A stretch of 34,728 nt of DNA from Bacillota bacterium (GTDB lineage: Bacteria; Bacillota; Dethiobacteria; Dethiobacterales; Dethiobacteraceae). The translations under genes and the position numbers were made by a program. Below are positions 226 through 30,737 of this stretch, piece by piece. Below the pieces are notes generated by a model. The model was not told the DNA's origin. It was given only the letters and a program-made list of their open reading frames with translations, and searched no databases. Location of the stretch: the NCBI GenBank assembly GCA_012800795.1, contig JAAZIQ010000072.1, positions 1-34,728 of the forward strand, in the 5' to 3' direction. Position 1 is the first letter of the stretch. The number at the start of each line of letters is the position of its first letter.

Positions 226-274
226 GGGGAGTATCGCAAACTTAATCAGCTTGTCGATACTCCTTTTGCTTTTG
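226..274. terminator. Bidirectional intrinsic terminator
   Basis: A perfect 9-bp stem (GGAGTATCG at 228-236 with CGATACTCC at 255-263) is followed by TTTTGCTTTT on the plus strand. On the minus strand it is followed by CCCCTTTTTT. It can therefore end both the corrinoid activator gene and the converging DUF421/DUF4363 pair. Confidence 0.85.
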
Positions 275-293
275 TTAAATAAGACATATTAAA

Positions 294-674: not shown

Positions 675-688
675 GCTGTAAGCCTCCG

Positions 689-1417: not shown

Positions 1418-1472
1418 CCCGCCCCTCACCTCGAAAATTTAGTTCAGGATAATTAGAATTCATTCCTTCTCT

Positions 1473-1502
1473 AGTATGTGCCCATTGAGGCATCTTTATC
1501 AA
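1473..1502 (-). promoter_or_regulatory. Candidate sigma-A promoter for the DUF421 unit
   Basis: On the minus strand TTGATA (1497-1502) and CATACT (1473-1478) are separated by 18 bases and lie about 55 bases before the DUF421 start. The -10 matches only four of six consensus bases, so this is tentative. Confidence 0.4.
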
Positions 1503-1573
1503 CGCTGTGCTTATGAGCCCCTCTTTTTTGGAGAAACTAACTATTAATTAAAACATGAAAAGTAGGAGATAAA

Positions 1574-3667
1574 ATGACCAATAACAAAACAGCCAACAGA
1601 CTAAGATATGAAAAATCTCCCTATCTGCTACAGCATGCTTATAATCCGGTAGATTGGTACGCTTGGGGTGATGAAGCCTTCGCCAAAGCCCAAAAGGAAG
1701 ACAAGCCTATTTTTCTTTCAATCGGCTATTCCACCTGTCATTGGTGCCATGTCATGGAACGGGAATCCTTTGCAGACCAGGAAGTAGCCGACGTCCTTAA
1801 TCGTATTTTTGTCTGTATTAAAGTGGATCGTGAAGAAAGGCCGGATGTGGACAATTTTTATATGAATGTCTGTCAAGCCATGACCGGCAGTGGCGGCTGG
1901 CCCCTAACCATTTTCATGCTGCCGGATAAACGCCCGTTTTTTGCCGGCACATATTTCCCCAAACAAACAAAATATGGACGCATGGGACTGTTAGAATTGG
2001 CCCGGCGCATAGAAGAGTTATGGCAAACAAGAAGAGCAGATTTAATGCAGACGGCGCAGCTATTAATGGATGATTTACATGCCACCTCAAGTGTAGCTCC
2101 GGGGGAGCTGCCGGGCGAAGAAGTGCTGCATAAGGCCTTTCAGCAATTGGCAGAACGCTTTGATTCAGAATATGGCGGTTTCCATCCCGCACCTAAATTC
2201 CCTACTCCCCACAATTTAACTTTTCTTTTACGATATTGGAAAAGAACGGGCAATGGCAAAGCTCTGTTTATGGTGGAAAAAACATTAACAGCCATGCGAA
2301 ATGGCGGTATTTTTGATCAAGTTGGCTTTGGCTTCCATCGTTATTCTACTGACCCCCACTGGCTGCTGCCCCATTTTGAAAAGATGCTTTATGATCAGGC
2401 TTTACTTGCCATTGCTTACCTGGAAACTTATCAAGCCACCCACAATGAACTGTATGCCGATGCTGCTCATGAAATCTTTACTTATGTCTTGCGTGATATG
2501 ACTTCACCTGAGGGCGGCTTCTATTCAGCTGAAGATGCTGACAGTGAAGGTAAAGAGGGTAAATTTTATGTTTGGTCAGCAGAAGAAATTGAGCGGGTTC
2601 TCGGTAAAAAGGATGCTGCTTTGTTTTGCAAAGTTTATAATATCTCCGCCGAAGGCAATTTTGTAGAAGAAACCACCCATTTAAAAACCGGTTTAAACAT
2701 TCCCTACCGTACTAAAACACTGACTGAGTTTGCTGCAGAAAACAAAAAAAATCCGGCGGAATTAACGCAGGCTCTGGAAATAATGCGGCAAAAACTTTTT
2801 GCTGCCCGTAAAAAACGTATACATCCTTATAAAGATGATAAAATTCTGACGGATTGGAACGGTCTGATGATTGCAGCCCTGTCCATGGGAGGCCGTATTC
2901 TGCAAGTTTCCCGCTATACAGAAGCAGCAAGCATGGCTGCAAACTTTATTTTACAAAAACTGAAACACAATAATCGTCTTCTAAAACGCTACCGTCACGG
3001 CGAGGCAGCACTGCCTGCCCATTTAGATGATTATGCTTTTTTCTGCTGGGGCCTTTTGGAGCTTTATGAAAGCACTTTTATTCCTGCTTATTTATCAGAA
3101 GCACTGGCTTTAAATCAAATCATGCTTGAACATTTCTGGGACCGAGAAAACGGCGCTTTTTTCTTTACTGCCGAAGATGTAAAAGATGCACCGGTACGGC
3201 AGCGCGAATTGTATGACGGAGCCCTTCCCTCCGGCAATTCGGTCGCCGCGATGAACAATTTACGTTTAGCACGTCTAACCGGTAATGAAGAGTTAACCAA
3301 GATTGCCCAAAAGATTGCACAGGCCTTTGCCGCTGAGATAAAAAAAATACCGCAGGCATATACTATGATACTTTCCGCCTTAGATTTTATACTTGGTCCC
3401 ACAATAGAACTGGTAATTGCCGGCAAGCCGCAGGCTGCCGACACGCAAGCAATGCTAAAAAAAATCCACACTTCCTTCATTCCCAATAAAGTAGTTTTAC
3501 TCCATCCTGGCGGCAAAGAAGGCAGGGCCATAGAAAGCATAGCTCCCTTTACCAGGGAACAAAAAGCTCTCAATAATAAAGCCACCGCCTATATTTGCAA
3601 AAATTTTGCCTGCCAAGCTCCCATAACAGATGCCAATTCTCTCTTAAAAGCTCTAACCGAAATCTAA
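1574..3667 (+). CDS. yyaL: YyaL-type thioredoxin-domain protein (DUF255 / SSP411 family)
   Basis: This 697-residue protein has the family's usual length and architecture. An N-terminal thioredoxin-like DUF255 domain (residues about 1-165) carries [19 protein letters not shown], the C55-H-W-C58-H active-site motif and the [11 protein letters not shown] block. The remainder resembles the six-hairpin glycosidase-like (alpha/alpha)6 barrel of N-acylglucosamine epimerases, with elements such as [13 protein letters not shown] and [18 protein letters not shown]. The biochemical role of this conserved family (human SPATA20, Bacillus YyaL) is not settled; a redox activity is suggested only by the CxxC motif. 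TAGGAG stands six bases before the ATG. The gene is alone on the plus strand between the divergent DUF421 pair and the convergent gat operon. Confidence 0.9.
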
Positions 3668-3668
3668 C

Positions 3669-3697
3669 AAAAAACGGATGCCGTAGCATCCGTTTTA
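3669..3697. terminator. Bidirectional intrinsic terminator between yyaL and gatB
   Basis: An 11-bp perfect stem (AAAACGGATGC at 3671-3681 and its complement at 3686-3696) with a CGTA loop lies between the convergent genes. It is flanked by A-runs and T-runs, so it can stop transcription in both directions. Its right arm overlaps the stop codon of gatB. Confidence 0.88.
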
Positions 3698-5122
3698 TAA
3701 CTTTTTCCGTAAAAGTTTATTTACTAAGGCCGGGTTAGCCTTGCCTTTAGTCAATTTCATGACCTGTCCTACCAGGAAACCCAGGGCTTTTTCTTTACCG
3801 CTTCGATAGTCTTCCACAGATTTGGGGTTGTTGGCTATAACCTCATCAACAATGGTAGTTAAGGCATCTTCATCCGTTATTTGCTCTAAGCCTTTCTCTT
3901 TAACAATTTCCGCTGGCATTTTCCCGCTATTAAACATTTCTTCCAAAACAGTTTTAGCAATTTTACCGCTAATGATGCCGTCATCCTGCAGTTTAAGCAG
4001 TTCCACCAAATGTTTCGGTGTTAGTTTTGTTTCGCTTATTTCCAATTCCTTTGCATTAAGATACCTAGCTATGTCCCCCATTAACCAATTGGCCACCGCT
4101 TTGGCATCACTATACTCGGCCACTGTGGCCTCGAAAAAGTCGGCCATTGCTTTAGAGGCCGTAATCACACCGGCATCATAAGCCGGTAAATCCCACTCTG
4201 AGACATACCGTTCTTGGCGGGAGTCGGGCATTTCAGGCAAAGTCTGCCGAATTTCCTCTACCCACGCAGGATCCACCACTACCGGTACCAAATCGGGGTC
4301 AGGAAAGTAGCGGTAGTCTTCGGCTTCTTCTTTGGAGCGCATAGCAAAAGTTTTGCCCTGGCTTTCATCCCAGCGACGCGTTTCCTGCACCACCTGGCCG
4401 CCTGAATTCAGAATTTCCGTATGCCGTGCCACTTCATAAGCCAATCCGCGCTCCACGGCTTTAAATGAGTTCATATTTTTTATTTCTGTGCGTGTGCCAA
4501 ATTCACTACTGCCAAATGGTCTAATGGAGATATTGGCATCACAACGCAAACTTCCTTCCTCCATTTTCACATCGGAAACACCGGTATACTGAATAATACT
4601 TTTGAGCTTTTCCAAATAGGCTTTAGCTTCAGCCGGAGAGCGTAAATCAGGCTCAGATACTATTTCTATTAAAGGAACCCCGGCGCGATTGTAATCTGCC
4701 AAAGAATGATCGCCAAATTCAGCATGTATTAATTTACCAGCATCTTCTTCCAAGTGCACACGCGTAATGCCAATTTTTTTCTTTACACCATCCACTTCAA
4801 TTTCCAAATAACCATTTACCGCAAGTGGTAAGTCATGTTGTGAGATCTGATAAGCCTTGGGTAAATCAGGATAGAAATAATTTTTACGGTCAAATTTGGA
4901 AAACCGCGGTATTTCACAATTTAAAGCCAAAGCCGCTTTAATGGCATACTCGACTGCAAGTTTATTTAAAACAGGCAGCGCCCCCGGCATCCCCAAGCAG
5001 ACAGGACAAACATGGGTATTGGGGTCTTGACCAAACTCCGTGGGGCAGCTGCAGAATATTTTTGTTTTTGTGGCTAATTCCACATGCACCTCTAAACCGA
5101 TTACTGTTTCATATTTACTCAT
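3695..5122 (-). CDS. gatB: Asp-tRNA(Asn)/Glu-tRNA(Gln) amidotransferase subunit B
   Basis: GatB is the kinase and tRNA-binding subunit of the cytoplasmic GatCAB complex. It phosphorylates the glutamate or aspartate on misacylated tRNA, and ammonia from GatA then completes the amide. The 475-residue length is normal. The start reads [16 protein letters not shown], followed by the cysteine cluster FCSCP...[13 protein letters not shown] that binds zinc in the family, the DFNRAG-like block [13 protein letters not shown], and the C-terminal YqeY-like domain ending in [20 protein letters not shown]. The start overlaps the end of gatA by eight bases, which implies translational coupling. Organisms with GatCAB generally lack one or both of glutaminyl- and asparaginyl-tRNA synthetase. 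Confidence 0.98.
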
Positions 5123-6590
5123 CCACAGTGCCCCCTTTAGCTCTTAAAGCAGGTTTTCTCTTCGGCAAACCACTATTTTGTTCATAAGCGTATGCTACGC
5201 GCAAAATTGTCCCTTCTGCGAAAGGTTTGCCTATGAGCTGCAGTCCCACAGGCAGGCCGTCCACAAAGCCGCAGGGGACGGAAATTGCCGGCAGACCGGC
5301 CAGATTTGTCGGAACAGTACAAATATCATTCAAGTACATTGACACCAAATCTTTAACCGCACCTTGTTTAAAAGCAGGAGCAAGCGTTGTAGGTGTAAGG
5401 ATAATATCATATTTGGCAAAAGCCTTTTCAAAATCTTCTCTAATAAGGGTGCGCACTTTTTGCGCTTTTACATAATAGGCTTCATAATTTTCGGCGCTAA
5501 GGGCATATGTGCCCAAAATAATACGACGCTTAACTTCAGGACCAAAACCTGCACCACGAGTATTCTCGTAAAGTTCCTGCAGGCTATCTGCTTCTGCCTG
5601 GAAGCCATACTGTACACCGTCAAAACGGGCTAAATTACTGGAAGCTTCTGCAGGAGCAATGACGTAGTAGGCAGGAATACCAAATTCCGAATGGGGTAAA
5701 GATATCTCTTCTGCCACCGCTCCCAATGATTCCAGCACTGCAATGGCTTTATGTATATTAGCCTTAACTTCTGCATTAATTCCTTCCACAAAATATTCTT
5801 TGGGAATAGCTATTTTTAAACCTTTAACGTTACCATCTAAAAAATTGATATAATCAGGGGTTGCTTGATTAACAGAAGTACTGTCGCGCGGATCATGTTT
5901 GGCTATAACATTCATCACTAAAGCACAGTCACGCACATCCTTGGTAAAGATACCAATCTGATCAAGGGAAGAAGCAAAAGGAATAAGACCGTAGCGGGAA
6001 ATGCGCCCATAAGTGGGTTTAAGGCCAACTACTCCGCAAAAAGCCGCCGGTTGGCGAACAGAACCTGCCGTATCAGAACCAAGGGCAAAAAATACTTCAT
6101 CAGCCGCCACCGCAGCAGCAGAACCACCACTGGAGCCACCGGGAACACTCTCCAAATCCCAGGGGTTGCAAGTGGTAAAAAAGGCAGAGTTTTCTGTGGA
6201 AGATCCCATGGCAAACTCATCCATATTTGTTTTGCCCAGTAAGATGCTTCCTGCTTCATCTAGTAATTCCGCAACTGTGGCATCATAAGGCGGAATAAAA
6301 TTATTTAACAATTTCGATGAACAAGTAGTTCTGACTCCTTTAGTACAAATATTATCTTTCAGCGCCATGGGAACACCGGCTAGCGGGCCAACTTCCTCAC
6401 CGTTAAGCCGTTTGGCGTCGATCTGTGCTGCTTTGCTCAAAGCGGCGTCCCTCGTCTGGGTAACAAAAGCTTTGACCGCATCTTCTACTTCATCTATGCG
6501 CGCCAATGCTGCCTCAGTTACTTCCCGAGCACTGACTTCCTTTTTGGCCAACTTGTCCACAATTTCTGCCAAAGTTAACTGTGTAAGCAT
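5115..6590 (-). CDS. gatA: Asp-tRNA(Asn)/Glu-tRNA(Gln) amidotransferase subunit A
   Basis: GatA is the glutaminase of GatCAB, releasing ammonia from glutamine and channelling it to GatB. The 491-residue protein has the full amidase-signature region. The catalytic lysine lies in [13 protein letters not shown], and the Ser-cis-Ser part is visible in [16 protein letters not shown] and [15 protein letters not shown]. Further family blocks include [13 protein letters not shown] and the C-terminal [23 protein letters not shown] site precedes the ATG by seven bases. It lies 12 bases after gatC and overlaps gatB, so the three subunits are made together. Confidence 0.98.
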
Positions 6591-20808: not shown

Positions 20809-21540
20809 TTATTTAATTATATCAACCCTTTCAGGGATAATGTCCGGTCGCTGGCGTCGTTCTTTCATGCACTCCAATTCTTTTTTAATTTCTTTAAAAA
20901 CTGTTTCCCAGGAAAGATTTAAGCTTTTTACGATTATATCTTTAATGGCTAAAACAAACTGATATTTCCAAAAAGTAAATATCGGATCATATGTTAGAAT
21001 AAAAGCACAAAGACGCCCTAAATCCTCTTCCTTTTTACCAGTGCGGCAGTCTTCAAAATCAAAACCAAATATTTCCTGTTCAGTTACAATAAAATTACGC
21101 AAATTAACGTCATTTAAAATAATACTGTAACCATATTTTCTGTGCAAAATACCATAAAAGTCAGCAAACCATAGAGCCCACTGCTCCAAGACAGAAGTTA
21201 TTTCTTTGGAACCGGCGGGCTTTTGTGCTTTTTTTTCCTGTTCTTCAAACCATGTCAGCAGATTTTTACCTTGGATATATTCTAAAACCAAATAATTTGC
21301 ACCGGACGCAATAATTTTCGGTACCGCTAGGCCTTCATCATAAAGAGCCTGCATAATTTGGGCTTCTTTACTTAAAGAGCGGGGATGAGTATATATTTTG
21401 ATCACCCAATCCCAACTCTCCCCCTGGTATCCTGTAAAATTATAAAGAAAGACCCTGTTTTTTTTACTATAAAACTCTTTTTGGCAGCGCCAAGAAATAA
21501 TATTCCATTTTTCACAGAGATCCCGGCTAAACATTTGCAT
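20809..21540 (-). CDS. APH/choline-kinase-like small-molecule kinase
   Basis: This 243-residue protein has the layout of the aminoglycoside phosphotransferase and lipopolysaccharide kinase branch of the protein kinase-like fold. I see the ATP-binding lysine K48 in WVIKIY, the paired glutamate E59 in SKEAQIM, the hinge YLVLEYIQGKNL, the catalytic loop LNDVNLRNF with D144 and N149, and the metal aspartate D161 in FGFDFEDC. All key residues are kept, although the usual His or Gly before the catalytic Asp is Asn. It is the last gene of the Moco-riboswitch operon, 50 bases after moeA, with no terminator between. The substrate is unknown; a dephosphorylated pterin cofactor is an attractive guess, and an unrelated housekeeping kinase is the alternative. 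Confidence 0.68.
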   Translation of the reverse strand: MQMFSRDLCEKWNIISWRCQKEFYSKKNRVFLYNFTGYQGESWDWVIKIYTHPRSLSKEAQIMQALYDEGLAVPKIIASGANYLVLEYIQGKNLLTWFEEQEKKAQKPAGSKEITSVLEQWALWFADFYGILHRKYGYSIILNDVNLRNFIVTEQEIFGFDFEDCRTGKKEEDLGRLCAFILTYDPIFTFWKYQFVLAIKDIIVKSLNLSWETVFKEIKKELECMKERRQRPDIIPERVDIIK

Positions 21541-21564
21541 CTCGCCTTACCCTTTACTGTTGTT

Positions 21565-21613
21565 TAGCAATTTTTCCAGAAACCCTCTTTTTAAGGCAGC
21601 GTCAAAATTGCTA
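21565..21613. repeat. Inverted repeat over the moeA stop codon
   Basis: TAGCAATTTT (21565-21574) and AAAATTGCTA (21604-21613) are perfect 10-bp complements around a 29-base loop that includes the moeA stop. No U-tract follows on the minus strand, so it is not a normal terminator. It could be an RNA-stability or processing hairpin that lowers expression of the kinase. Confidence 0.4.
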
Positions 21614-22826
21614 CCGGTTCATTATTCATTATATTCTTACCTCCGGGCACTTCAATTAAACAATTGCTGTTGGCATAATTTTTTATTGAACCACAAAATT
21701 GATTCTCCAGAGGTCTCACAATTATTGTACTGCCTTCTTGTCTGTAACTGCCCCAAAAATAGCTGCAGAAGCTGGATTTATAATGGATTGGCTGTTCCAA
21801 TAATGCCTGATACCGCTGCAGGCAGCGTCTTGCACCGGCCAGACCTGCTATCAGAGGGTAGACTAAGATCAGCATCGCCACAGTTGCTCCGCCTGGATTG
21901 CCGGATAAACCAATTAGCAATTGTTTTGGCTTGACCGATACAACTACCGGAGCGCCGGGGCGAATTGCTACTTTATTAAACAATCTTTGGGCAGAAAATC
22001 TATCCATAGCCTCTTTAATTACATCATAATCCCCAGACGCGGTACCGCCGGTAGAAACAACAAGAGGTATTGCCCGCCTTTCAGCTTCCTCGTAAATCTT
22101 GATTACCTCTTCCACGCTATCAGGCACAATACCTAAATTTATCGGCACTCCACCGGCCCGCCGGATTATTTCAGATAAAACATAGATATTTGAAGCACGT
22201 AATTTTCCGGGACGCAAATGAGAATCAACTTCAATCAGTTCATTACCCGTGGAAAAAACACCTACTACAGGCTGTTTAAAAACCGGCACGGGATCAACAC
22301 CTAAGGTTGCTAAAACTCCCAAATGAGCTGCCGTTAAAATTGTCCCTGCATTGATTAATAACTCCCCGGCTGCGATATCTTCTCCTTTATAACCAACTCC
22401 TTCGCCTTTCTTGGGTGGTTGCATAATTTGTATCATCTGCTCATTACAGCTACCGGTAGTTTCAAGCACTTCTTCTTGCTTAACTACACAGTCAGCTCCC
22501 AAAGGAAGCGGCGCACCTGTAAATATTCTCGTTGCAGTATGAGGTATTAATTTATTTACCACATCAGATCCGGCGGCAACTTCATCCTTGACAGCTAATG
22601 TTACAGTTTTTTCAGCTGTTGCCCCAATGGCATCCTCTGCCGCTAATGCAAAGCCATCTACCAAAGAACGATCAAAGGCAGGAAAATTCTCTACAGCAAT
22701 AATGTCTTTAGCCAAAACTCGTCCTCCGGCATTCCATAAAGCTATTTGCTGCAGATTATTATTTTTAGGCACTAAATGTTCCAGCTGCCGTAACAAAATT
22801 TCCTGCGCATCTTTTAAGGCAATCAA
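21591..22826 (-). CDS. moeA: Molybdopterin molybdenumtransferase MoeA
   Basis: MoeA inserts molybdenum into adenylated molybdopterin to give active cofactor in the cytoplasm. At 411 residues it has normal length and all landmarks: FDRSLVDGFAL near residue 58, IFTGAPLPLGADCVV, the MoCF/MogA-like domain with VGVFSTGNELIE and VSTGGTASGDYDVI, SGNPGGATVAML at 308-319, and the C-terminal beta domain. The start is a TTG at 22826: AGGGGGTG lies seven bases before it and an in-frame stop sits three codons upstream, so no longer form exists. An ATG four bases earlier is out of frame. It follows mobB by 38 bases in the Moco-riboswitch operon. Confidence 0.96.
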   Translation of the reverse strand: MIALKDAQEILLRQLEHLVPKNNNLQQIALWNAGGRVLAKDIIAVENFPAFDRSLVDGFALAAEDAIGATAEKTVTLAVKDEVAAGSDVVNKLIPHTATRIFTGAPLPLGADCVVKQEEVLETTGSCNEQMIQIMQPPKKGEGVGYKGEDIAAGELLINAGTILTAAHLGVLATLGVDPVPVFKQPVVGVFSTGNELIEVDSHLRPGKLRASNIYVLSEIIRRAGGVPINLGIVPDSVEEVIKIYEEAERRAIPLVVSTGGTASGDYDVIKEAMDRFSAQRLFNKVAIRPGAPVVVSVKPKQLLIGLSGNPGGATVAMLILVYPLIAGLAGARRCLQRYQALLEQPIHYKSSFCSYFWGSYRQEGSTIIVRPLENQFCGSIKNYANSNCLIEVPGGKNIMNNEPVAILTLP

Positions 22827-22864
22827 CCATTTTCACCCCCTTACACAATTGTCGCCGTTTTTGC

Positions 22865-23614
22865 TTATTTCCCTTTTATTTTAACCACAATTTCTCCGTT
22901 CTCACGATAACCGTCCAATTCCTTTACCACACCGGTAACGGCATTAAAAAGAAGCTTTTGCACAAAAGGCACCATGTCAATTTCTCTTCCATCAACTGTG
23001 AGGGAAATACTTCCGTCGGAAATAACACAGTCTTCGCGCTTTGCTTTGCCCTGCAGTATTCTGGCACATAATTCCGTACAAGTATATCCGCAGGCCAAGC
23101 AGCATTCATCTGCCACATCGGGAAGCCGTTCAAATACTTTTTCCTCTATCAGATCTACCAGTTTTTCAGTCTCTGTAATGGCGTTGATTACCGGTAATCC
23201 TCGATATTCCTGCATGCTGTTGGCCAGCTTTCCCGAAATGGCAAACACCGTATCGTCCAGGCGCTCATCAACTTCCTCTGTATTATGAGCTGTAATAATT
23301 TTCGGTGCACAGGTGTCCGTAACACCTTCTAGAATTACATAATCATGGTCGTAAAACTGTAAAATTTCTTTTACTGTCAATTGATGCTGAAACAAAATAT
23401 CTGTTTCATATATTCCGCGCGCCGTTACCAACTGTGAGCCGGCCTTTTTATGCCTGTCTGTATTAGTCCCTTCAGTATCAATGGCGAATTTTTCATTATG
23501 AATTTCTTTGACCGAACCTACGGTAAAACGTCTTTTTCTTAACTCAGCAATGATATTTTCAATAGTGGTTGTTTTTCCCGACTTAGTAATGCCAAATACA
23601 GAAAAAACTTTCAT
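22865..23614 (-). CDS. mobB: Molybdopterin-guanine dinucleotide biosynthesis protein MobB with Fe-S-like tail
   Basis: MobB is a P-loop GTPase thought to supply GTP to MobA when molybdopterin is joined to GMP. The N-terminal 165 residues have the fold's Walker A motif GITKSGKTTT (8-17), VGSVKEIHN and the D-T-x-G-x-D-like TEGTNTDRHKKAGS block. Residues about 171-196 hold six cysteines in the pattern C-C-x2-C-x3-C-x3-C-x12-C (CCLACGYTCTELC and EDC), which resembles the small 4Fe-4S domain found in corrinoid and acetyl-CoA pathway proteins. A final domain ends with GVVKELDGYRENGEIVVKI. MobB of Escherichia coli lacks this tail. GGAGG precedes the ATG. No mobA is present in the window. Confidence 0.9.
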   Translation of the reverse strand: MKVFSVFGITKSGKTTTIENIIAELRKRRFTVGSVKEIHNEKFAIDTEGTNTDRHKKAGSQLVTARGIYETDILFQHQLTVKEILQFYDHDYVILEGVTDTCAPKIITAHNTEEVDERLDDTVFAISGKLANSMQEYRGLPVINAITETEKLVDLIEEKVFERLPDVADECCLACGYTCTELCARILQGKAKREDCVISDGSISLTVDGREIDMVPFVQKLLFNAVTGVVKELDGYRENGEIVVKIKGK

Positions 23615-23628
23615 TCTTTCCAGACCTC

Positions 23629-24372
23629 CTAATTAATTTTAACAGAGATCATTAACAGCAAAAGAAAAAGAACCATACCAACAGCCATGACCAAATAGTC
23701 AGCCTGACAAAAATGCAATTCTCTAAGACTCGTCCTGTGAGGAAAAGCCCGGAAAGCACGCATTTCCATAGCGACGGAAAGATCACGCGATTTCATTAAA
23801 ACACTCACTAACAGAGGCATTAATAGATAAGAATAAGTTTTTAAGCGTTTAAAAAGTGGTATTTTCTTCAAATTAACACCCCGCAGCTGCAAGGCTGTAA
23901 GTGTGTCTTTTGCTTCTTCCTGCAAAAGAGGTAGAAATCTGATGGCAATGGTGACCATAAAAGCCAATTCATAAGGGATTTTCCATTGTATTAACCCTTG
24001 AATAATATCACGGGGGTTAGCAGTTGTCATAATGGCAGCTGCAGCAATAACAATAAAAAAACGCAAAACCGTTTGGACGCCACGCAACAACCCCACATCA
24101 GTTAGAAGTTTTATTTTCACTAGCTGCAGGATTACCTGACCTTCCGCTGTGAAAATACTTTGGATCACTATTATCGCCACAAAAACAGTAATCAATCTTT
24201 GTAATTTACGGAAGATACTCGTTATATCCCCGCCAATTACCTTTACCGTCAGCAGAGTAATAAACAGCAGAAGAAGCAAAATATATACATTTTTTATAAA
24301 AACGGCCAAACTAGAAAAGATTAAAACCAAAAATAGTTTCGTACGGGGATCAAGTGCTGCAGCTTGCCACAT
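23629..24372 (-). CDS. ecfT: ECF transporter transmembrane subunit T (CbiQ/EcfT family)
   Basis: EcfT is the membrane coupling subunit that links two ATPases to a substrate-binding S protein. The protein of about 247 residues has five or so hydrophobic helices and the cytoplasmic coupling helices, visible in ALQLRGVNLKKIPLFKRL and KSRDLSVAMEMRAF, the latter matching the conserved A-M-E-x-R-x-F element that contacts the ATPase. I start at the ATG at 24372 (MWQAAALDPRTK); two in-frame TTG codons lie just before it. Its start overlaps the preceding ATPase gene by 23 bases, and mobB follows after 14. The transported ligand is decided by the S component, not by this subunit. Confidence 0.93.
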   Translation of the reverse strand: MWQAAALDPRTKLFLVLIFSSLAVFIKNVYILLLLLFITLLTVKVIGGDITSIFRKLQRLITVFVAIIVIQSIFTAEGQVILQLVKIKLLTDVGLLRGVQTVLRFFIVIAAAAIMTTANPRDIIQGLIQWKIPYELAFMVTIAIRFLPLLQEEAKDTLTALQLRGVNLKKIPLFKRLKTYSYLLMPLLVSVLMKSRDLSVAMEMRAFRAFPHRTSLRELHFCQADYLVMAVGMVLFLLLLMISVKIN

Positions 24373-25015
24373 CAACAATTTCCCCCCCTGCCACAGTAAT
24401 TATCTGCTGCGCGTGCCTTTGCACGAAGTATTGATCATGACTGATAATCACCATGCCAATTCCCTCGTCCTTTAATTTTTCAATCACAGAAGAAAGAATT
24501 CCCTTCCTTTCCCTATCCAGGCCTGTGGTTGGTTCATCAAGAATAAAAAAACGAGGCTGATTAACCATAATGGCCGCAATGGCCAAGCGTTGTTTTTCTC
24601 CACGGCTTAATTTTATCGGTGATAAATTTGCCAGCTGCTCCAATTGGAACTGTTTTAAAACAGCATCTACTTTAGTGTTAATTTCCTCTTGACTTATCCC
24701 GCGCAGCTCCAGGGCAAAAGCAATTTCGTCTCGGACGCTAGCAGCAAATATTTGCCTTTCCGGCTCTTGAAAAAGGTACCCAATTCTTGCTCCTATTTCT
24801 GCCAGTGCCACATCTTTTGTATTTAAACCATCCACCAGCACCGTACCGGCTTGCGGTTTTAAAATACCGGCCATCAGCTTGCCTAATGTTGTCTTCCCAC
24901 CGCCATTGGGCCCAACAATAAAAGTGATAAGGTTTTGCTTAATTTCTAAATTAAGGTGTTTAAATAACCATTTATCCCTTTGATAACGAAAACTGACATC
25001 TTGAAGGGAAATCAT
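24350..25015 (-). CDS. ECF transporter ATP-binding subunit (second)
   Basis: This 221-residue ABC ATPase pairs with the upstream one to power the ECF transporter. Visible motifs are Walker A GPNGGGKTT, the Q-loop LFQEPERQIF, the signature LSRGEKQRLAIA, Walker B RFFILDEPTTGLD and the H-loop VIISHDQ. The signature is LSRGE, not LSGGQ, as is common in one subunit of ECF ATPase pairs. The ATG at 25015 lies five bases after AGGTGAG and is preferred to the TTG one codon earlier. It follows the first ATPase gene by 14 bases. Confidence 0.94.
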   Translation of the reverse strand: MISLQDVSFRYQRDKWLFKHLNLEIKQNLITFIVGPNGGGKTTLGKLMAGILKPQAGTVLVDGLNTKDVALAEIGARIGYLFQEPERQIFAASVRDEIAFALELRGISQEEINTKVDAVLKQFQLEQLANLSPIKLSRGEKQRLAIAAIMVNQPRFFILDEPTTGLDRERKGILSSVIEKLKDEGIGMVIISHDQYFVQRHAQQIITVAGGEIVDVASCST

Positions 25016-25029
25016 CAATACTCACCTGC

Positions 25030-25719
25030 CTAAGACAAGCTGCCGGTAAAGGGCTCCAGTTTACCGCCCTTCAATACCAACACCCGGTCGGCAATCTGCA
25101 AATTTTCCCAATCATGTTCTATTATTACTATGGTTTTACCATCAGCACGTAAATTCAGCATCATTTCTTTGATCTTTTCCCTGCCGTCGGCATCAATTTG
25201 CGACATGGCCTCATCAAAAATTAATATTTCCGGCTGCAAACTAAGTACTGCCGCCAAGGCAATCAGCTGCCTTTGCCCCCCAGACAGCTGTTGCGGGTTG
25301 GCATATCTGAATTCTTTCATTCCGACTTTTTCCAGCACCTCATCTATTCTGCGGGCAATTTCATCTCTCGGCACACACAAATTTTCCGGACCAAAGGCAA
25401 TTTCATCTTCCACGGTAAAAGAAAAAAGCTGATGGTCAGGATTTTGAAAAACAATGCCTAGATTTGTGGCAATTTCGGGTAAGGTTAAATCCCTGGTGCT
25501 TTTCCCGTTAAGCAGCACTTCACCCTCCATCATACCTCCGTAAACATGTGGTATAATACCGCTTAAACAATAGCAGAGCGTACTCTTGCCAATGCCGCTT
25601 AAACCGACAATGGCCACTATTTCACCTTTAGCCACAGACAAGTTTAAATGACGCAATATATATATTGCGTCATTTTCATATTGAAAAGATAAATCTTTGA
25701 CAACAATCGGTAATGTCAC
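25030..25719 (-). CDS. ECF transporter ATP-binding subunit (first)
   Basis: This 229-residue ABC ATPase has Walker A GLSGIGKST (39-47), the Q-loop VFQNPDHQLF typical of ECF/cobalt-type ATPases, the signature LSGGQRQ, Walker B ILIFDEAMSQID and H-loop IIEHDW. The residue after the Walker B glutamate is Ala instead of the usual Pro, but the catalytic Glu is kept. It would form a heterodimer with the next gene product below EcfT. The ATG overlaps the stop of the preceding gene as ATGA, showing tight coupling to the exported SUOX-fold protein. Confidence 0.94.
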   Translation of the reverse strand: MTLPIVVKDLSFQYENDAIYILRHLNLSVAKGEIVAIVGLSGIGKSTLCYCLSGIIPHVYGGMMEGEVLLNGKSTRDLTLPEIATNLGIVFQNPDHQLFSFTVEDEIAFGPENLCVPRDEIARRIDEVLEKVGMKEFRYANPQQLSGGQRQLIALAAVLSLQPEILIFDEAMSQIDADGREKIKEMMLNLRADGKTIVIIEHDWENLQIADRVLVLKGGKLEPFTGSLS

Positions 25720-26222
25720 TGTAGTTCTATCTCCATTAAATATTTATTCCATCTTTGTCCAAATTGGTCCCCTCTGATTACTATCTGATAGGGACCGGAG
25801 CCCCCTTCTTCCCTGGTGCCCAAATCTTTACCGTCACGTTTATATACGATATATACATTGTCATCCAACAGAACTTCTTCCATTGATAAAGCTACTGTAT
25901 AGCCGTCCACTGCTTTAGTTATTACTTGTTTTTTATCAGCTGTCTTAATTTCCAGTTTTGCCAGCAAATCTTTTAGCTGTACACCGGTATAACTGGTATC
26001 AACGGGCGGCTTGCCGCTGCTTTTTAAGACTGCAGGAAACTCTTTTTCCGGCAGTTCTTTAATGGTGGCAAAATCAACCTCCATTTCTTTACCGTCAGCC
26101 TTAATATACAAAATAGCCTTTTCCTGACTGGCCGCTTTATCTTTCAGGCTTTCCCGGTTTAGGAATGCAGTCACTGCCACGATAATTAAAAGAACCACTA
26201 AGACAATAACAACCTTTTTCAC
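25716..26222 (-). CDS. Membrane-anchored sulfite-oxidase-fold (Oxidored_molyb-like) protein
   Basis: This 168-residue protein has an N-terminal hydrophobic segment (about 3-20) acting as signal or anchor, then one domain that resembles the molybdopterin-binding sulfite oxidase fold: YTGVQLKDLL, ITKAVDGYTVALSMEEVLLD, VYIVYKRDG and the closing FGQRWNKYLMEIEL. There is no cysteine anywhere, so the metal-ligating Cys of true sulfite oxidases is missing. It would sit outside the membrane. Overlap of four bases on each side, with the phosphodiesterase gene and the ECF ATPase gene, argues for a job in the same transport process, perhaps ligand binding. The ligand is not known. Confidence 0.75.
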   Translation of the reverse strand: MKKVVIVLVVLLIIVAVTAFLNRESLKDKAASQEKAILYIKADGKEMEVDFATIKELPEKEFPAVLKSSGKPPVDTSYTGVQLKDLLAKLEIKTADKKQVITKAVDGYTVALSMEEVLLDDNVYIVYKRDGKDLGTREEGGSGPYQIVIRGDQFGQRWNKYLMEIELQ

Positions 26223-27730
26223 TCGATTCTCCCTCCTTCGGCTATTATATAGGGAACGATTAAATCTTCATACCTAAATTCACCGTGATTGCCGGCATCT
26301 TCCGTGGAATGCATGCCATGATCCGCCAGGATTATTACCTTACCTTTCCACGCTTCAACTAAATCCCGGACATAACCGTCAACAACTTTAAGCTGCTCCA
26401 TGGTGTTTTCATGAAGGTCACCATAACTGTGGCCGGCATCATCTATACTATGAAAATGAACCATTATTAAATCATAGTTCGCATCCTTTACATATTCTAA
26501 GGCCGTGCTGTAAATTTCATCTTCATTTTTTCCATCCCCATTGAGATCGATATTAAGTACAGGCTCAATTTCCGTGTTGAGTATTTTAATGTGGCCTTCA
26601 ATAAGGGCAGATTCTTTCCCCAATTGCTTGGCCATGGCAAAAATGGAGGGAGTTTTTAAATCCATTTGATCACGGGAATAAACACCATTTTCATCAGGTG
26701 TTTTTCCTGTAATCATGGCGGCAAAACCGGCATTGGTAACGGGTTGATAAACTGAAAGCGCCTTTTCCGCCTGCGGTAAAGTGCTTAAAAATGGAATATA
26801 GCCATTTTCCTTGGCGTATTCGTACTGATGATAGCCAAAACCATCAAGGAACAGCAGCAATACTTTTTCATCTCGCTGCAGGTAGTGTAAAGTATCATGG
26901 TAAAGATCGGTTATAGAGCGCGAAGGAGGCGCAATCATAAAGCCTTTAACATTTTCAATTATTTCATTTTCACGATCCAGACTAAAATAATTAAGAAAAT
27001 TTTTATTTACCTGTAGAAAACCGGGGTCAGAAGTATAGAGCGTTTCACCTTTTGCTCCCATTACAACAAACTGCTCCGCCTCCGAAAAATCAACTAAATC
27101 ACGTAGAGGATAAAGCTGCCGCCTGGTAAAAATAGAAACACTGTTTTGGCCTCCGTCATTGGTAACGGTGGAAGTCCCTTCAAAATAGGGCATCTGTACT
27201 CCGGTCTCTTTATAAAGTTGACCGGGGGTAAAATAAGCCAAATTTTCTGTCTGGGAAATAATGTTAACGCCAAAATTTAATGGTGCATCAGGGGCAATAA
27301 TAATTATTTCCTTCAATCTTTTTACATTGCTGCTGACAGGATGTAAAAGATTAATCGCCTCCCAGCCATTTTCAGACAACAAAATGTGACAGCCATCTAA
27401 ATTTGAGCCATCTATTAAGGCGCTGAGGCCATCCTCGCCAATAAACAGTATTTCATGCTTCTCTGTGATAGGTTCTGTACTTTGTATAATACTGGCGAGG
27501 GGGATACCCCGCTTTCTTTCCCCTTTATATTCAAAATCCACACTGTCGAACTCCGCTTCGTCCAGTAGCGTAAGGGGATTTTTGATATCGCCATTAATCT
27601 GCAAAGCAGGAACATAAGAGGTAGTAGTTTTTTTTGCTGCCACTTTGAACATTGCCTCTCGTAAAAGCGCTCCCAGTATTATAGCTCCCAACAACAACAG
27701 CGCTATCTTGATAGTAGAATTTTTAGGCAT
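26219..27730 (-). CDS. Exported alkaline-phosphatase-superfamily phosphodiesterase with SUOX-like N-terminal region
   Basis: This 503-residue protein starts with a membrane segment (about 7-25). Residues about 40-150 resemble the same sulfite-oxidase-like domain as its neighbours (RKRGIPLASII, ILFIGEDGLSALI, VKRLKEIIII), and 160-270 may be a second. The C-terminal 210 residues are a type I phosphodiesterase/nucleotide pyrophosphatase domain with a complete active site: D296 in FLDGFG, nucleophile T332 in PVTNAG, D430 and H434 in SIDDAGHSYG, D470-H471 in ADHGM and H482 in NHGEF. A calcium-loop-like DLNGDGKNED lies between. The enzyme should cleave phosphate mono- or diesters outside the cell; a cofactor or nucleotide is a likely substrate but unproven. 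I start at the ATG at 27730, after AAGGGGG. It overlaps its neighbours by eight and four bases. Confidence 0.8.
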   Translation of the reverse strand: MPKNSTIKIALLLLGAIILGALLREAMFKVAAKKTTTSYVPALQINGDIKNPLTLLDEAEFDSVDFEYKGERKRGIPLASIIQSTEPITEKHEILFIGEDGLSALIDGSNLDGCHILLSENGWEAINLLHPVSSNVKRLKEIIIIAPDAPLNFGVNIISQTENLAYFTPGQLYKETGVQMPYFEGTSTVTNDGGQNSVSIFTRRQLYPLRDLVDFSEAEQFVVMGAKGETLYTSDPGFLQVNKNFLNYFSLDRENEIIENVKGFMIAPPSRSITDLYHDTLHYLQRDEKVLLLFLDGFGYHQYEYAKENGYIPFLSTLPQAEKALSVYQPVTNAGFAAMITGKTPDENGVYSRDQMDLKTPSIFAMAKQLGKESALIEGHIKILNTEIEPVLNIDLNGDGKNEDEIYSTALEYVKDANYDLIMVHFHSIDDAGHSYGDLHENTMEQLKVVDGYVRDLVEAWKGKVIILADHGMHSTEDAGNHGEFRYEDLIVPYIIAEGGRIE

Positions 27731-28298
27731 GCTTATCCCCCTTGCCAAGTATGCTGCTTAGACCGCTCTTTTTTAATTGTTTATTTAAGCTGTGGGCAAT
27801 AATTCCTCCCAGCCCCCCGGAGAGTGCCGCTGCAGATAAACTTAATAGCAAAGGAATCAAGGGCAGCCGGAAAAATACTAAATTAACCAGTGCAGTGCCG
27901 CTGATATTAGCTGCAATACCCCCGGCAAAGCAACAGCCAAGACAGCAGCCGCGGTGGCGGGAAATTAACATTACCAAATCTACTGCCAGTCCGGGCAAAA
28001 TATAAGTGAAGATATTAAAGAAGCCGTGGGTACCCATAATACCAGTGGCAGTAACCATGATGGCCTGCACCACTGCGATAAGTGTGCCTGCCCCGGTTTT
28101 TTGCACCAAAGCTACCCCCAGGACGATCCACAGCATATAAAAGCCGCCGGCAATGACCCCGCCTGGGATGAAAAGGGGGCCGGTAATAATTTGGGTTAAA
28201 GGAACAATAATGGGTTTGGTGGCGATTCCCAGGCAGGCCATTAAAGCCAGCAGTACCAAGTCAAAAAGCGAAAATTTCTTGACTAGCTTACCTAGCAT
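27723..28298 (-). CDS. ECF transporter substrate-binding S component, ligand unknown
   Basis: This 191-residue protein has about six hydrophobic helices and the size of ECF S components, which bind one vitamin-like ligand in the membrane. The first helix (FDLVLLALMACLGIATKP) is rich in small residues as expected for docking onto EcfT, and GGVIAGGFYMLW followed by a long hydrophobic stretch fits the fold. An unusual cysteine cluster, CCLGCC (118-123), precedes helix 5. I do not recognise it as RibU, ThiT, BioY, FolT, PanT or CbrT. Because the operon is led by a Moco riboswitch and also holds moeA and mobB, a pterin or molybdopterin-related ligand is my first guess. Spacing to the neighbouring lipoprotein gene is ten bases. 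Confidence 0.8.
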   Translation of the reverse strand: MLGKLVKKFSLFDLVLLALMACLGIATKPIIVPLTQIITGPLFIPGGVIAGGFYMLWIVLGVALVQKTGAGTLIAVVQAIMVTATGIMGTHGFFNIFTYILPGLAVDLVMLISRHRGCCLGCCFAGGIAANISGTALVNLVFFRLPLIPLLLSLSAAALSGGLGGIIAHSLNKQLKKSGLSSILGKGDKHA

Positions 28299-28308
28299 AT
28301 TTTACCAC

Positions 28309-28794
28309 TTACTTAACAATAATCTTTGCCAAGTTTTTAATATACATATTGCCAGATTCACCTGCCGGTACCATTTGCACAGGTCCGTCCTCTTCATCCA
28401 GCTTTTCGCCATCACGTACAAAGCCCAAAATAGTTTCTTCCCTGTTTATAATTTCTAAAGTATAATCTTTAGCATAGCCGTCAGCCGCTTCTACCGTTAC
28501 ACTTTGGTAATCTTTAGCACCTACGGCCTCCAAAACATCCTTCAAGGAAACACCCTGCCAATTTTCTTTTACTTCTGTTCCGTCTTTTTTAGTTTTTACT
28601 GCTTCCACATCTCTTTGTGTTAATTTTGCAGCATCCAAATCCGTAAAAGTAATAGGCTCATCCTTTACCCCTTCAATAGTAATAGACCACTCAGGTTCAG
28701 CCGGCGTTGTTTTTTCACCTGAACAAGCAATTAAAGCTGTACTTAATAATAATACAACCAACAATAAAGACACTCTTAAAGCTGCTTTTTTCAT
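28309..28794 (-). CDS. Lipoprotein with one sulfite-oxidase-fold domain
   Basis: The 161-residue product has a lipoprotein signal with lipobox L-I-A-C24, so it is tethered to the outer face of the cell membrane. The rest is one Oxidored_molyb-like domain: WQGVSLKDVLEAVG, VTVEAADGYAKDYTLEI, ILGFVRDGEKLDEEDGPVQMV and a final YIKNLAKIIV. The only cysteine is the lipobox one, so no metal-ligating Cys is present. A strong AGGAGG site precedes the ATG. It lies 20 bases after the two-domain lipoprotein and just before the S component. A role as extracellular binding protein is inferred from position. Confidence 0.78.
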   Translation of the reverse strand: MKKAALRVSLLLVVLLLSTALIACSGEKTTPAEPEWSITIEGVKDEPITFTDLDAAKLTQRDVEAVKTKKDGTEVKENWQGVSLKDVLEAVGAKDYQSVTVEAADGYAKDYTLEIINREETILGFVRDGEKLDEEDGPVQMVPAGESGNMYIKNLAKIIVK

Positions 28795-28814
28795 TTTTCC
28801 TCCTCCTATATACT

Positions 28815-29924
28815 TTAATTTTCTAAGGCGGTTATAGTAACCAAACCTTTAACAGTAGTATTTTTAGGCAAGCCGTCAAACATTACCGTGACCTCTCCGC
28901 TGTCTTTAATAAAAACTACTCCTTTTGCCAAATCATCTTTGCTGATTTCCACCTCATAACCATCTACGGCAGTAAAAAGATATTTCTCACTATCTGCCAT
29001 ATCAACCTCTTGGAAAATATCCGTTATCAAAATTCCCTCTGCTTCACCCTTTTGTACCGGAGTAAAGTATTTAAGCCCCTGTTCTACGGAAAGAATACCG
29101 ACATCGGCTTTCCCTACCCAAAGCAGCTCCTTAACATGCATCCCTTTGGGTAAATTGGGTGAAAGATAAGCCGGACTGGCTTCGCCGGTAATCTTAATAT
29201 AGCCCTCATTCAAAAACACTTCTGCTTTTTCATTTTTATCAAGGCCGTCACTGGATTTCAAATAAACAGTATCGTCTTCTTCCGGCAGTGGCAGTTTTTT
29301 ACACAAAACCGCTTTATCAATACTTTCGTAGTATGTATAATCATGCTCCTCCATTGAGCTAACAACACTTTCTAAAAACATTAACTTACTGACAGCTTCT
29401 GCCGTTGCTGCCTCCAAAATTTCAATTTTTACCAAGTTCCTGACCCAATACATAGAACGCTCGCCGGGGACAATGGCTCTGATAGGCTTTGTTTTTTCAT
29501 GTAAAGGTTCACCGTTTATTTCATAGGCCAAAATAATATCCCGTGCCTCCAAAACTTCTTTGGGCACTTCCATCATATATCCGTCTCCGGCTACAAAACG
29601 AATAGCAGGTAAATCTTTTTGGTTTATACCTAAATTTTCTAGCACTTCAGAAAATAAAGCACCCTTTACACTATACTCGTTTTCATTGCCGGAAGAATTG
29701 ACAGAAACCACATCTTCTTCCACCGGGTTATATTTTTCTTTCAACTTGGCAACTGTGATTTTGTGCTCTCCCAGCTCTGCTCCTGCAATCACAATTGCTT
29801 CTTCTTCCTCTCCACCGGAATTATTGTCCCCGTTCGCCGCCGGCTCTTTACTGCCGCAAGCTGCGGAAAAGAGAAGCAGCAAAACCAAGGACAATAAAAT
29901 AAATACATTTCTCATTTTCTTCAT
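28815..29924 (-). CDS. Lipoprotein with two sulfite-oxidase-fold-like domains
   Basis: This 369-residue protein begins with a hydrophobic signal ending in F-S-A-A-C23, a fair lipobox, followed by a Gly/Asn/Glu-rich linker. The first domain (about 55-175) matches the Oxidored_molyb pattern: VKGALFSEVLENLG, IRFVAGDGYMMEVPKEVL, IILAYEINGEPLHEKTKPIR and YWVRNLVKIEIL. The second half (about 235-369) ends in a similar but degenerate copy with FTAVDGYEVEISKDDLAKG and TTVKGLVTITAL. One further cysteine lies between them and does not fit the metal-ligand position. It is probably the largest binding protein of the system. Its ATG overlaps the stop of the flavoprotein gene as ATGA. Confidence 0.75.
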   Translation of the reverse strand: MKKMRNVFILLSLVLLLLFSAACGSKEPAANGDNNSGGEEEEAIVIAGAELGEHKITVAKLKEKYNPVEEDVVSVNSSGNENEYSVKGALFSEVLENLGINQKDLPAIRFVAGDGYMMEVPKEVLEARDIILAYEINGEPLHEKTKPIRAIVPGERSMYWVRNLVKIEILEAATAEAVSKLMFLESVVSSMEEHDYTYYESIDKAVLCKKLPLPEEDDTVYLKSSDGLDKNEKAEVFLNEGYIKITGEASPAYLSPNLPKGMHVKELLWVGKADVGILSVEQGLKYFTPVQKGEAEGILITDIFQEVDMADSEKYLFTAVDGYEVEISKDDLAKGVVFIKDSGEVTVMFDGLPKNTTVKGLVTITALEN

Positions 29925-30466
29925 TTAATCCCCTCCTTATAATTTCTAAAAGCATTAAAGGCGGCATTTACGCCATCCACGATGGCTTGACTGGTAATGG
30001 TAGCACCCGTTACAGCCACAATTTCATCCTTACTTTGTGCCATAACTTTCACAAGATTTAAATCTGTAGCGGTACTTTTTTCTAAAAAGCGCGCCATGAA
30101 CCAATCCTCTGCCGCATAGCCCCCATAGTTATCAGTTTCCTGATGTGACAAAATCTTTAAGTCCACTAATTTTTGCTTCTGTATATCAAGCTTAACCTGC
30201 AGCCTAATAAGACCGTTATAGCCTACCGTTTCCACAAATTGCAGCATCTGTACAGGTTCTCTTTTGCGATCGGTAATTATATACAGCTCTTTAACTTTAT
30301 CATCTTCTAAAGCTCTAACCCTTCTGGCCGCCTCTCCTTCACCAAGGTACTCTTTAACATACTGCGGTGTAGTGTCCCAGAGTTTTATCACTGCCGCTAA
30401 AGCCATAACAATAATAATGGCAGAGAAATAAATCAGCCGACGATGCTTAATTTCTATCAAGACCAC
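29921..30466 (-). CDS. Membrane-anchored FMN-binding protein (RnfG/NqrC type)
   Basis: The 181-residue product has one hydrophobic anchor (about 11-29) and an outward FMN_bind domain. The flavinylation motif is clear as VTGATITS (152-159), where the threonine would carry FMN covalently attached by an ApbE-type transferase. SHQETDNYGG (107-116) is the other conserved part of the family. Such domains pass electrons on the outer face of the membrane. No apbE gene is in the window. It is the first gene of the operon behind the Moco riboswitch. The start is uncertain: GTG at 30466 or TTG at 30460, both close to GGGGGTG; no ATG is available. Confidence 0.85.
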   Translation of the reverse strand: MVLIEIKHRRLIYFSAIIIVMALAAVIKLWDTTPQYVKEYLGEGEAARRVRALEDDKVKELYIITDRKREPVQMLQFVETVGYNGLIRLQVKLDIQKQKLVDLKILSHQETDNYGGYAAEDWFMARFLEKSTATDLNLVKVMAQSKDEIVAVTGATITSQAIVDGVNAAFNAFRNYKEGIK

Positions 30467-30494
30467 CCCCGCAGCAATACAACATCTTGCTTAT

Positions 30495-30526
30495 TAAAAA
30501 GCAATACCTCTTCCAGCGGAAGAGGT
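30495..30526 (-). terminator. Intrinsic terminator in the riboswitch leader (expression platform)
   Basis: On the minus strand ACCTCTTCC and GGAAGAGGT form a perfect 9-bp stem with a GCT loop, followed by ATTGCTTTTT. It lies between the aptamer and the first gene, about 30 bases before the start, as expected for a transcription-attenuating riboswitch. An AGGT at 30533-30536 could pair with the ACCT of the left arm and compete with the terminator. Confidence 0.82.
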
Positions 30527-30546
30527 AAAATAACCTGCAAAAATAG

Positions 30547-30647
30547 TTGTTCTCCTTTCCACTGGGAGGCTGCACCGTTTCCAATACAACCCTAACGGTC
30601 TATGCTTCATAGGCTAGCCCTTAGATGCATAGACTCGGAGCTAACAA
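30547..30647 (-). promoter_or_regulatory. Moco (molybdenum cofactor) riboswitch aptamer
   Basis: Read on the minus strand, the leader folds into a closed multi-stem element. P1 pairs TTGTT-AG-CTCC (30647-30637) with GGAG-AACAA (30555-30547). Inside are GTCTATGC/GCATAGAC (8 bp) enclosing the GGGCTAGCC segment, ACCGTT/AACGGT (6 bp), and the strongly conserved stretch GCCTCCCAGTGGAAAGGAG. These segments, with CCGAG and CCGTTAGGG, match my memory of the Moco RNA motif. The genes that follow (moeA, mobB, several molybdopterin-binding-fold proteins) support it independently. It controls the whole 20809-30466 operon. A tungsten-cofactor form of the motif cannot be excluded. Cobalamin, FMN and TPP motifs are absent. 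Confidence 0.85.
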
Positions 30648-30708
30648 AGTATTGAGTTGCGACCAAAAATAAATGATCTTAATATAGCTATCCTTTATAT
30701 CTATGTTT

Positions 30709-30737
30709 ACGATACAGTTTTACCTATTGTTTGTCAA
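30709..30737 (-). promoter_or_regulatory. Sigma-A promoter for the Moco-riboswitch operon
   Basis: A perfect TTGACA (30732-30737) lies 17 bases before TATCGT (30709-30714) on the minus strand, directly behind the stop codon of the uracil-DNA glycosylase gene. It would start a leader of about 235 bases that includes the riboswitch and its terminator. Confidence 0.7.

Follow-up and report, generated by a model that had tools for sequence, protein, structure and literature searches.

A Moco-riboswitch operon of a Bacillota bacterium encodes a candidate importer of a molybdopterin-type cofactor

We analyzed a 34,728-nucleotide stretch of DNA (here the window; contig JAAZIQ010000072.1 of assembly GCA_012800795.1, from a Bacillota bacterium of the family Dethiobacteraceae) in which 12 close-packed open reading frames on the minus strand (20809–30466) lie downstream of a molybdenum cofactor (Moco) riboswitch and encode a candidate energy-coupling factor (ECF) transporter. 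In the order of transcription, and all on the minus strand, these are an FMN_bind/RnfG-like protein with an N-terminal hydrophobic stretch (29921–30466; PF04205 5.4e-14; TIGR01947 9.2e-14, below cut-off); suoxA, a 369-aa protein with the sulfite oxidase (SUOX) fold (28815–29924; PF00174 6.4e-12), which we take to be a lipoprotein from a lipobox recognized by eye; suoxB, a 161-aa SUOX-fold lipoprotein (28309–28794; PF00174 4.4e-13); an ECF S component of the YkoE type (27723–28298; PF09819 5.7e-13 and predicted structure); a membrane-anchored nucleotide pyrophosphatase/phosphodiesterase with an N-terminal SUOX-like domain (26219–27748; PF01663 2.4e-18); suoxC, an anchored SUOX-fold protein of 168 aa with no cysteine (25716–26222; PF00174 1.4e-11); two EcfA ATPases (25030–25719, PF00005 2e-29; 24350–25018, PF00005 2.5e-30); EcfT of the CbiQ family (23629–24378; PF02361 2e-31; TIGR02454 1.7e-21, below cut-off); a MobB-type GTPase (22865–23614; PF03205 8.3e-18; NF011064 2.3e-39, below cut-off), whose C-terminal extension weakly matches an FeS domain (PF04060 0.013, below cut-off); MoeA (21591–22826; PF03453 7.5e-41, with PF00994 and PF03454), the sole MoeA match in the window's genome; and an APH/RIO/Bud32-like small-molecule kinase (20809–21540; PF01636 5.7e-11), for which no sequence relative was found in the PDB at E 0.01. 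The open reading frames and Pfam domains thus bear out the twelve tightly packed minus-strand genes of the original prediction, which also placed a promoter and riboswitch in front of them. The riboswitch stood; the promoter, a −35/−10-like hexamer pair (TTGACA-17-TATCGT, 30709–30737, minus strand, 10 of 12 matches), is no more than plausible, since the number of such pairs in the leader scan is near chance (2, compared to a shuffle mean of 0.9).

The riboswitch aptamer (30536–30652, minus strand) scored 72.5 bits against the covariance model RF01055 (gathering score 36; E 7.7e-16), and so the leader passes the covariance search as a Moco riboswitch. The P3 hairpin of RF01055 is a gap in the window's alignment, which makes this an aptamer of the P3-less type; a reading by eye of the other 26 leaders likewise showed no P3 stem. 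According to the accessible text of Regulski 2008 (PMC2408646), 58 of 176 aptamers are P3-less, and 17 of the 19 organisms with such aptamers carry genes for the tungsten cofactor (Tuco).

We examined the expression platform and found a single terminator-like hairpin (30505–30527, minus strand; read as 30527–30505) in a 400-base scan (shuffle mean 0.2). Folding of 27 leaders (the window's and those of 26 relatives) gave in most cases a hairpin and U-run 3′ of the aptamer, and a terminator lay within the first 90 nt past the aptamer in 19 of the 27, compared to 4.8 expected from dinucleotide shuffles; an earlier scan had counted 25 of 27 with a wider search span and no shuffle control, and we rely on the controlled count. 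The window's aptamer contains a strand, GUGGAAAGGAG, that is complementary to the 5′ arm of the terminator hairpin and can form an antiterminator with it (duplex −11.9). Across 25 leaders, pairing between the 3′ side of the aptamer and the 5′ arm of the terminator averaged −10.6 kcal/mol compared to −7.5 kcal/mol for shuffled sequences, although pairing with the terminators of other leaders was nearly as strong (−9.5), because the aptamer is conserved; antiterminator pairing was weak (−6.0) in three leaders (L023, L025 and L027). Since the aptamer strand otherwise pairs with the 5′ arm of the terminator, a bound aptamer frees the terminator. Thus, the window's leader is arranged as an OFF switch, in which the operon is shut when cofactor is plentiful, as would fit genes that obtain the cofactor.

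By the features tested, the operon encodes an ECF transporter: an S component with the fold of YkoE (5EDL), an EcfT of the CbiQ family (PF02361) and two ABC ATPases (PF00005). The predicted S-component model (pLDDT 86) had YkoE 5EDL as its best structural match (TMq 0.72, E 3.5e-4), with RibU and ThiT weaker (E 0.14 and up), and the S profile, run against PDB sequences, returned chance-level matches only. YkoE contacts thiamine through Tyr46, Trp49, Glu77 and Gln95, as set out in the available part of PMC5037267. We found that none of these four contacts is kept in the window's protein (Y46 to G51, W49 to Y54, E77 to V82 and Q95 to P102) in a mapping made by hand, through a two-step alignment by way of a YkoE-like protein of a distant branch (locus L059), that covered these four residues, with Asp131 outside it. 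The ECF complex would be expected to drive import at the expense of ATP.

At L059 itself (genome G003; 3194–4288 and 4285–5349, minus strand), one protein joins a YkoE-like S component to a SUOX-fold domain at its C terminus (96.3% in profile comparison, E 1.7e-9), beside a 536-aa double EcfA, an EcfT and a phosphoesterase whose tail is SUOX-like less surely (52%, E 1.4e-4). As read from its sequence, L059 appears to be a physical fusion of the transporter and SUOX modules. G003 keeps MoaA and MoaC, and so this branch shows association, not auxotrophy. Proteins of similar length (361–393 aa) score 47–60 bits in seven other genomes of the window's class.

The Mo-ligating cysteine that marks the sulfite oxidase enzymes is not conserved in the SUOX-fold (PF00174) proteins, which have no invariant cysteine in 25 aligned sequences (one C-terminal column is cysteine in some rows). 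The nearest solved relative of suoxB by sequence is the pterin-binding protein 7kos, a weak match (E 0.0068). PruR, a SUOX-fold protein in which tryptophan replaces the cysteine, binds pterins, as reported in the accessible part of PMC13259868. By analogy, the operon's SUOX-fold proteins may capture pyranopterin outside the cell. A relative locus (L036; 3452–8893, plus strand) encodes a 1813-aa surface protein with SLH and SUOX-fold domains adjoining the S gene, a member of a similarity cluster that spans 11 loci.

The exported phosphodiesterase also carries a SUOX-like domain at its N terminus, as the original prediction had proposed; it is invisible to Pfam and detected by profile comparison (94.5%, E 8.1e-8), and is absent from the phosphodiesterase of some relatives (L034, L035 and L038). 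The best structural match of the predicted model was the Xac nucleotide pyrophosphatase/phosphodiesterase (NPP; 2gsn), over about 225 alignment columns of the 509-residue model, and the alkaline-phosphatase-type fold and invariant D302 and T338, which we take to be the metal and Thr motifs of NPP, assign it to the NPP/ENPP class. This likeness to nucleotide pyrophosphatases suggests dinucleotide cleavage rather than phosphate removal, and the enzyme could cut molybdopterin guanine or cytosine dinucleotide (MGD or MCD).

To what extent this gene set is conserved was assessed by a profile scan of named genomes, which yielded 34 relative loci with S components 53–89% identical to the window's; no S relatives were found on plasmids. 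In 24 loci the contig runs on for 6.2 kb or more past S; 23 of these contain EcfA-type ATPases and ecfT, 19 mobB, 18 the kinase and 14 the pyrophosphatase, with ATPases and SUOX proteins each counted by type, as queries within each cross-match. Any SUOX protein was found in 31 of the 34 loci, and moeA, in addition to the window, in three (L013, L017 and L018), with several contigs ending too early to tell. A Moco riboswitch lies upstream of S on the same strand, at 20 nt to 8.3 kb, in 26 of the 34 relative loci, the co-occurrence that the original prediction had proposed as a check. The eight without one include two whose contigs are cut just before S (L014 and L032; the others are L029, L030, L031, L033, L036 and L045), and, L014's aside, their genomes each hold 5 to 19 riboswitch matches. 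The original prediction had also raised the risk that genes for an unrelated vitamin sit beside S; no other vitamin pathway was seen in the operon.

We searched 45 genomes for genes of cofactor synthesis: the window's, 33 others that bear S and 11 from the window's family without a close S. MoaC was absent from 18 of the 34 S-bearing genomes, compared to 0 of the 11 without a close S, with identical counts for MoaA; both were absent from 17 of the 34, the window's included. Thus, S does occur in genomes lacking moaA and moaC, where the original prediction had suggested looking for it. The 17 exclude G036 (MoaC only) and G038 (MoaA only), and partial MoaC genes at contig ends in G024 and G035 were scored as present; genomes G013, G018, G015, G001, G002, G012 and G011 were treated as the same genomes as G019–G025. 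MoeA was absent from 13 of the 17 and present in all 28 others (Fisher 3e-8). A TupB-like permease scoring above 140 bits was likewise found in none of the 17, compared to 24 of the 28 others (5e-9), namely 14 of the 17 S-bearing genomes outside this set and 10 of the 11 without S; this line and the 125-bit line for S used below were chosen after seeing gaps in the scores, and none of the 45 genomes reaches NCBIfam's own 320-bit cut-off. Weak matches to the TupB model remained among the 17 in G034 (64.6 bits) and in G026, G030 and G046 (below 25 bits). In contrast to these losses, aldehyde:ferredoxin oxidoreductase (AOR) was kept in all 17 (42 of the 45 overall).

The same association appears within narrower groups. 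In the window's family, MoaA and MoaC occur in each of the 11 genomes that lack a close S, compared to MoaC in three of the eight with S (P 0.005). In a survey of 62 genomes of the class that are at least 90% complete, S (above 125 bits) was found in 17, and MoaC was absent from 5 of these 17 compared to 3 of the 45 without S (P 0.03). These P values overstate the case, as the genomes are not independent. On the S tree, absence of MoaA and MoaC requires six changes, at least three of them forced by well-supported branches; the genome of L020, outside the searched set, was left unlabeled on this tree and counted as not-absent. Matches to Molydop_binding number five in the window's genome, three in G013, four in G018 and none in G001 and G002, and so occur only in the MoeA-bearing ones of these five; G001 and G002 have AOR alone, with enzymes of the xanthine-oxidase type not searched. 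We also tried MoaE (PF02391) as a pathway marker and rejected it, since it was found in only 9 of the 45 genomes and was missing from 10 of the 11 S-less relatives, all of which carry MoaA and MoaC. That MoaE went unfound in most MoaA/MoaC-bearing genomes hints that these lineages have a divergent molybdopterin synthase.

From these results, we infer that the operon encodes an ECF importer for a cofactor of the molybdopterin type, mainly in its tungsten form and most likely with the metal in place, that is caught by the SUOX-fold proteins; we put the probability of this reading at roughly two in three. That some molybdopterin-type cofactor is imported, whether metal-bound or metal-free, is very probable. 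In the proposed mechanism, the cysteine-less SUOX-fold lipoproteins and anchored proteins would capture extracellular pyranopterin. The anchored pyrophosphatase, which has a SUOX-like domain of its own, would trim nucleotide-linked forms (MGD and MCD) to the mono-pterin, and the S component would pass this to EcfAAT for ATP-driven import. Inside, the MobB GTPase and the kinase would process or deliver the cofactor, with MoeA added in some lineages, and the P3-less riboswitch would switch the operon off at high cofactor. The original prediction, that this system takes up and reuses Moco or its pterin, is in this respect supported by the riboswitch, the 26 of 34 loci and the 17 of 34 genomes. 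Its choice of Moco as ligand is supported as to the molybdopterin type, while the P3-less riboswitch and AOR point at least equally to the tungsten cofactor; its proposal that MoeA finishes the cofactor does not hold in general, given moeA in the window and only 3 of 34 relative loci and the absence of MoeA from 13 of the 17 auxotrophs.

We considered that the same ECF system might instead import metal-free molybdopterin or a dephosphorylated form, with the kinase restoring the phosphate and MoeA and MobB inserting Mo or W inside the cell. The moeA genes of L013, L017, L018 and the window, whose lineage keeps MoeA within the operon, fit this alternative and weigh against import of the metal-bound form, and the kinase in 18 of 24 long loci fits it as well. 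However, 13 of the 17 genomes without MoaA and MoaC have no MoeA match at all, all 17 are devoid of TupB-like permeases above 140 bits, and all keep AOR; the lack of any MoeA match favors import of metal-bound cofactor, and we regard metal-free import as unlikely. In tungsten insertion in Methylorubrum, MobB cooperates with MoeA, according to the available text of PMC13197769; where MoeA is missing, one might speculate that MobB delivers the cofactor. In another alternative, the complex would import thiamine, a folate-type or monapterin-type pterin, or another vitamin, the Moco regulation being incidental. The S component does belong to the family of a thiamine transporter (YkoE), and PruR proteins of the SUOX fold bind simple pterins (PMC13259868, in its accessible part), but with 0 of 4 mapped thiamine contacts kept, mobB, moeA and Moco riboswitches as neighbors, and the coincidence with absence of MoaA and MoaC, such a ligand is quite improbable.

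Several observations weigh against our main reading, and some of them lend themselves to other explanations. The assignment of P3-less aptamers to Tuco rests on correlation (PMC2408646, as far as its accessible text goes), oxyanion uptake was judged by TupB-like permeases, with ModA and WtpA not searched as such, and mobB and the kinase were not found in six loci (L030, L031, L032, L033, L036 and L045). Surface flavoproteins or ApbE occur in some relative loci. Together with the NusG_II and FAD/FMN proteins that flank some of them, the RnfG-like FMN-binding protein encoded by the operon's first gene and the giant SLH-SUOX surface protein, these would suit an ECF complex that exports cofactor or a flavin for a redox module at the cell surface, where it would load exported proteins of the SUOX-fold and FMN-binding kinds. 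Likewise, Moco riboswitches lie directly before AOR genes, which are cofactor users, in three genomes (L068 in G046, L069 in G048 and L070 in G039). The AOR leader of G039 has a terminator-like hairpin, and no clear terminator was seen in those of G046 and G048, which are perhaps translational or ON-type switches. Being riboswitch-led does not, then, by itself imply a gene for acquisition, and we dropped the rule that it always does. Export has only a slim chance, however, since the leader of the operon has the layout of an OFF switch, the SUOX proteins lack an invariant cysteine for holding the metal, and AOR without MoaA, MoaC and MoeA would be left unexplained. Finally, incomplete assembly might account for the missing genes, with the operon being no more than an ordinary cluster for redox chemistry or metal homeostasis under Mo/W regulation. 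Sixteen of the 17 genomes without MoaA and MoaC are titled metagenome-assembled genomes, the window's being a 99-contig assembly; the completeness figures cover class members only; and both named isolates with S, Sporotomaculum syntrophicum and Sedimentibacter hydroxybenzoicus, keep MoaA and MoaC. In addition, the three S-less class genomes without MoaC (of 45; G065, G084 and G093, 90–92% complete) have Molydop_binding enzymes, which would reflect either incomplete assemblies or a different route of salvage; a distant relative of S (60 bits) occurs in G065. Gaps would nevertheless have to remove MoaA, MoaC, MoeA and TupB jointly, in several parts of the S tree, yet spare AOR and the operon, and MoaC is missing from genomes as complete as G018 (99%) and G001 (97%; the window's genome is 90.4% complete), which makes this explanation very hard to sustain.

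If the operon does import a metal-loaded cofactor, the consequences reach beyond it. It is an evenly balanced question whether the intact W (or Mo) pyranopterin cofactor serves as a "vitamin" for these bacteria, scavenged from neighbors by a dedicated ECF transporter and SUOX capture proteins, several Bacillota lineages having dropped molybdopterin synthesis, metal insertion and tungstate uptake. The original prediction knew of no ECF transporter for this ligand, and we found no Moco or Tuco transporter in the literature searched, with most subscription papers outside our reach; as far as that literature shows, this would be the first transporter for Moco or Tuco described in any organism. Transfer of Moco from bacteria to C. 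elegans is known, with the mechanism by which it crosses membranes stated to be unknown (PMC9793310, accessible part), and 292 and a further 13 bacteria that have Moco-dependent enzymes while lacking the pathway for Moco are left unexplained in the available text of PMC6147048. The operon offers a concrete candidate transporter, a predicted family of capture proteins and testable auxotrophs, and suggests that tungsten or molybdenum cofactor is traded in anaerobic communities.

We compared the operon to known systems. YkoEDC, the group I ECF thiamine transporter of Bacillus subtilis (5EDL; PMC5037267, in part), is similar in the S fold (TMq 0.72), in PF09819 and in having its A, T and S genes in one operon, but the window's operon lacks the four mapped thiamine contacts and has a Moco riboswitch and SUOX, pyrophosphatase, MobB, MoeA and kinase partners. 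The SUOX proteins of the PruR type (7KOS, "Pterin Binding Protein") are likewise small, exported and without a Mo-ligating cysteine; PruR signals through DcpA (PMC13259868, available text), whereas in the window's operon a Moco/Tuco riboswitch precedes SUOX genes together with those of a transporter. TupABC, ModABC and WtpABC also supply W or Mo for the cofactor and have Moco-riboswitch-led examples in these genomes, but they carry the bare oxyanion, and no TupB-like permease scores above 140 bits in any of the 17 auxotrophs. The Moco/Tuco regulons of Regulski 2008 share P3-less aptamers and terminators with the operon; in contrast to the window's operon, no ECF transporter is named in the accessible part of that study (PMC2408646), in which the term "ECF" itself was not searched. 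There, two P3-less RNAs of Syntrophomonas wolfei beside putative "sulphite oxidase" genes are noted as possible exceptions and read as preceding an enzyme. Cysteine-less SUOX capture proteins would, by analogy, explain these exceptions.

Other Moco riboswitches are frequent in these genomes. At least one match was found in 32 of the 33 searched S-bearing relative genomes, with 31 in G033, 24 in G029, 19 in G051, 17 in G039 and 16 in G031, each more than the "at least 15" given for S. wolfei in the available text of PMC2408646. TupB-like permeases follow a riboswitch on the same strand, at a distance of up to 1.4 kb, in at least seven genomes (G024, G025, G036, G038, G039, G044 and G051). In the window's genome, a second Moco riboswitch (3608–3726 of L058, that is, G000:C71:1-6000) leads a second, shorter MobB (2937–3491, minus strand), which scores 246 bits to the operon's MobB and adjoins an fdhA-like gene split into several frames (365–2330, plus strand) with a Molydop_binding match. 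What is presumably a ModE-N-like regulator (2553–2957, plus strand) adjoins it as well.

In Sporotomaculum syntrophicum, we viewed eight stretches covering 10 of its 16 riboswitch matches. The riboswitch-led genes there encode a TupA-like binding protein (L066), a ModA/ModB-type transporter (L065), a moeA-type gene product (L062), an iron-sulfur CCG-domain protein (L067), a 584-aa protein (L064) and two giant proteins of the cell surface whose SUOX matches are borderline (L060 and L061). At L061, the riboswitch is followed by a purple acid phosphatase and then by the giant protein, which has a Shr-like domain and the borderline SUOX match. At L063, the riboswitch leads an SLH protein and then a further ABC transporter (3–1831, minus strand), with a permease that is FecCD-like by eye and an ATPase, which is possibly a further transporter for Mo/W or for the cofactor.

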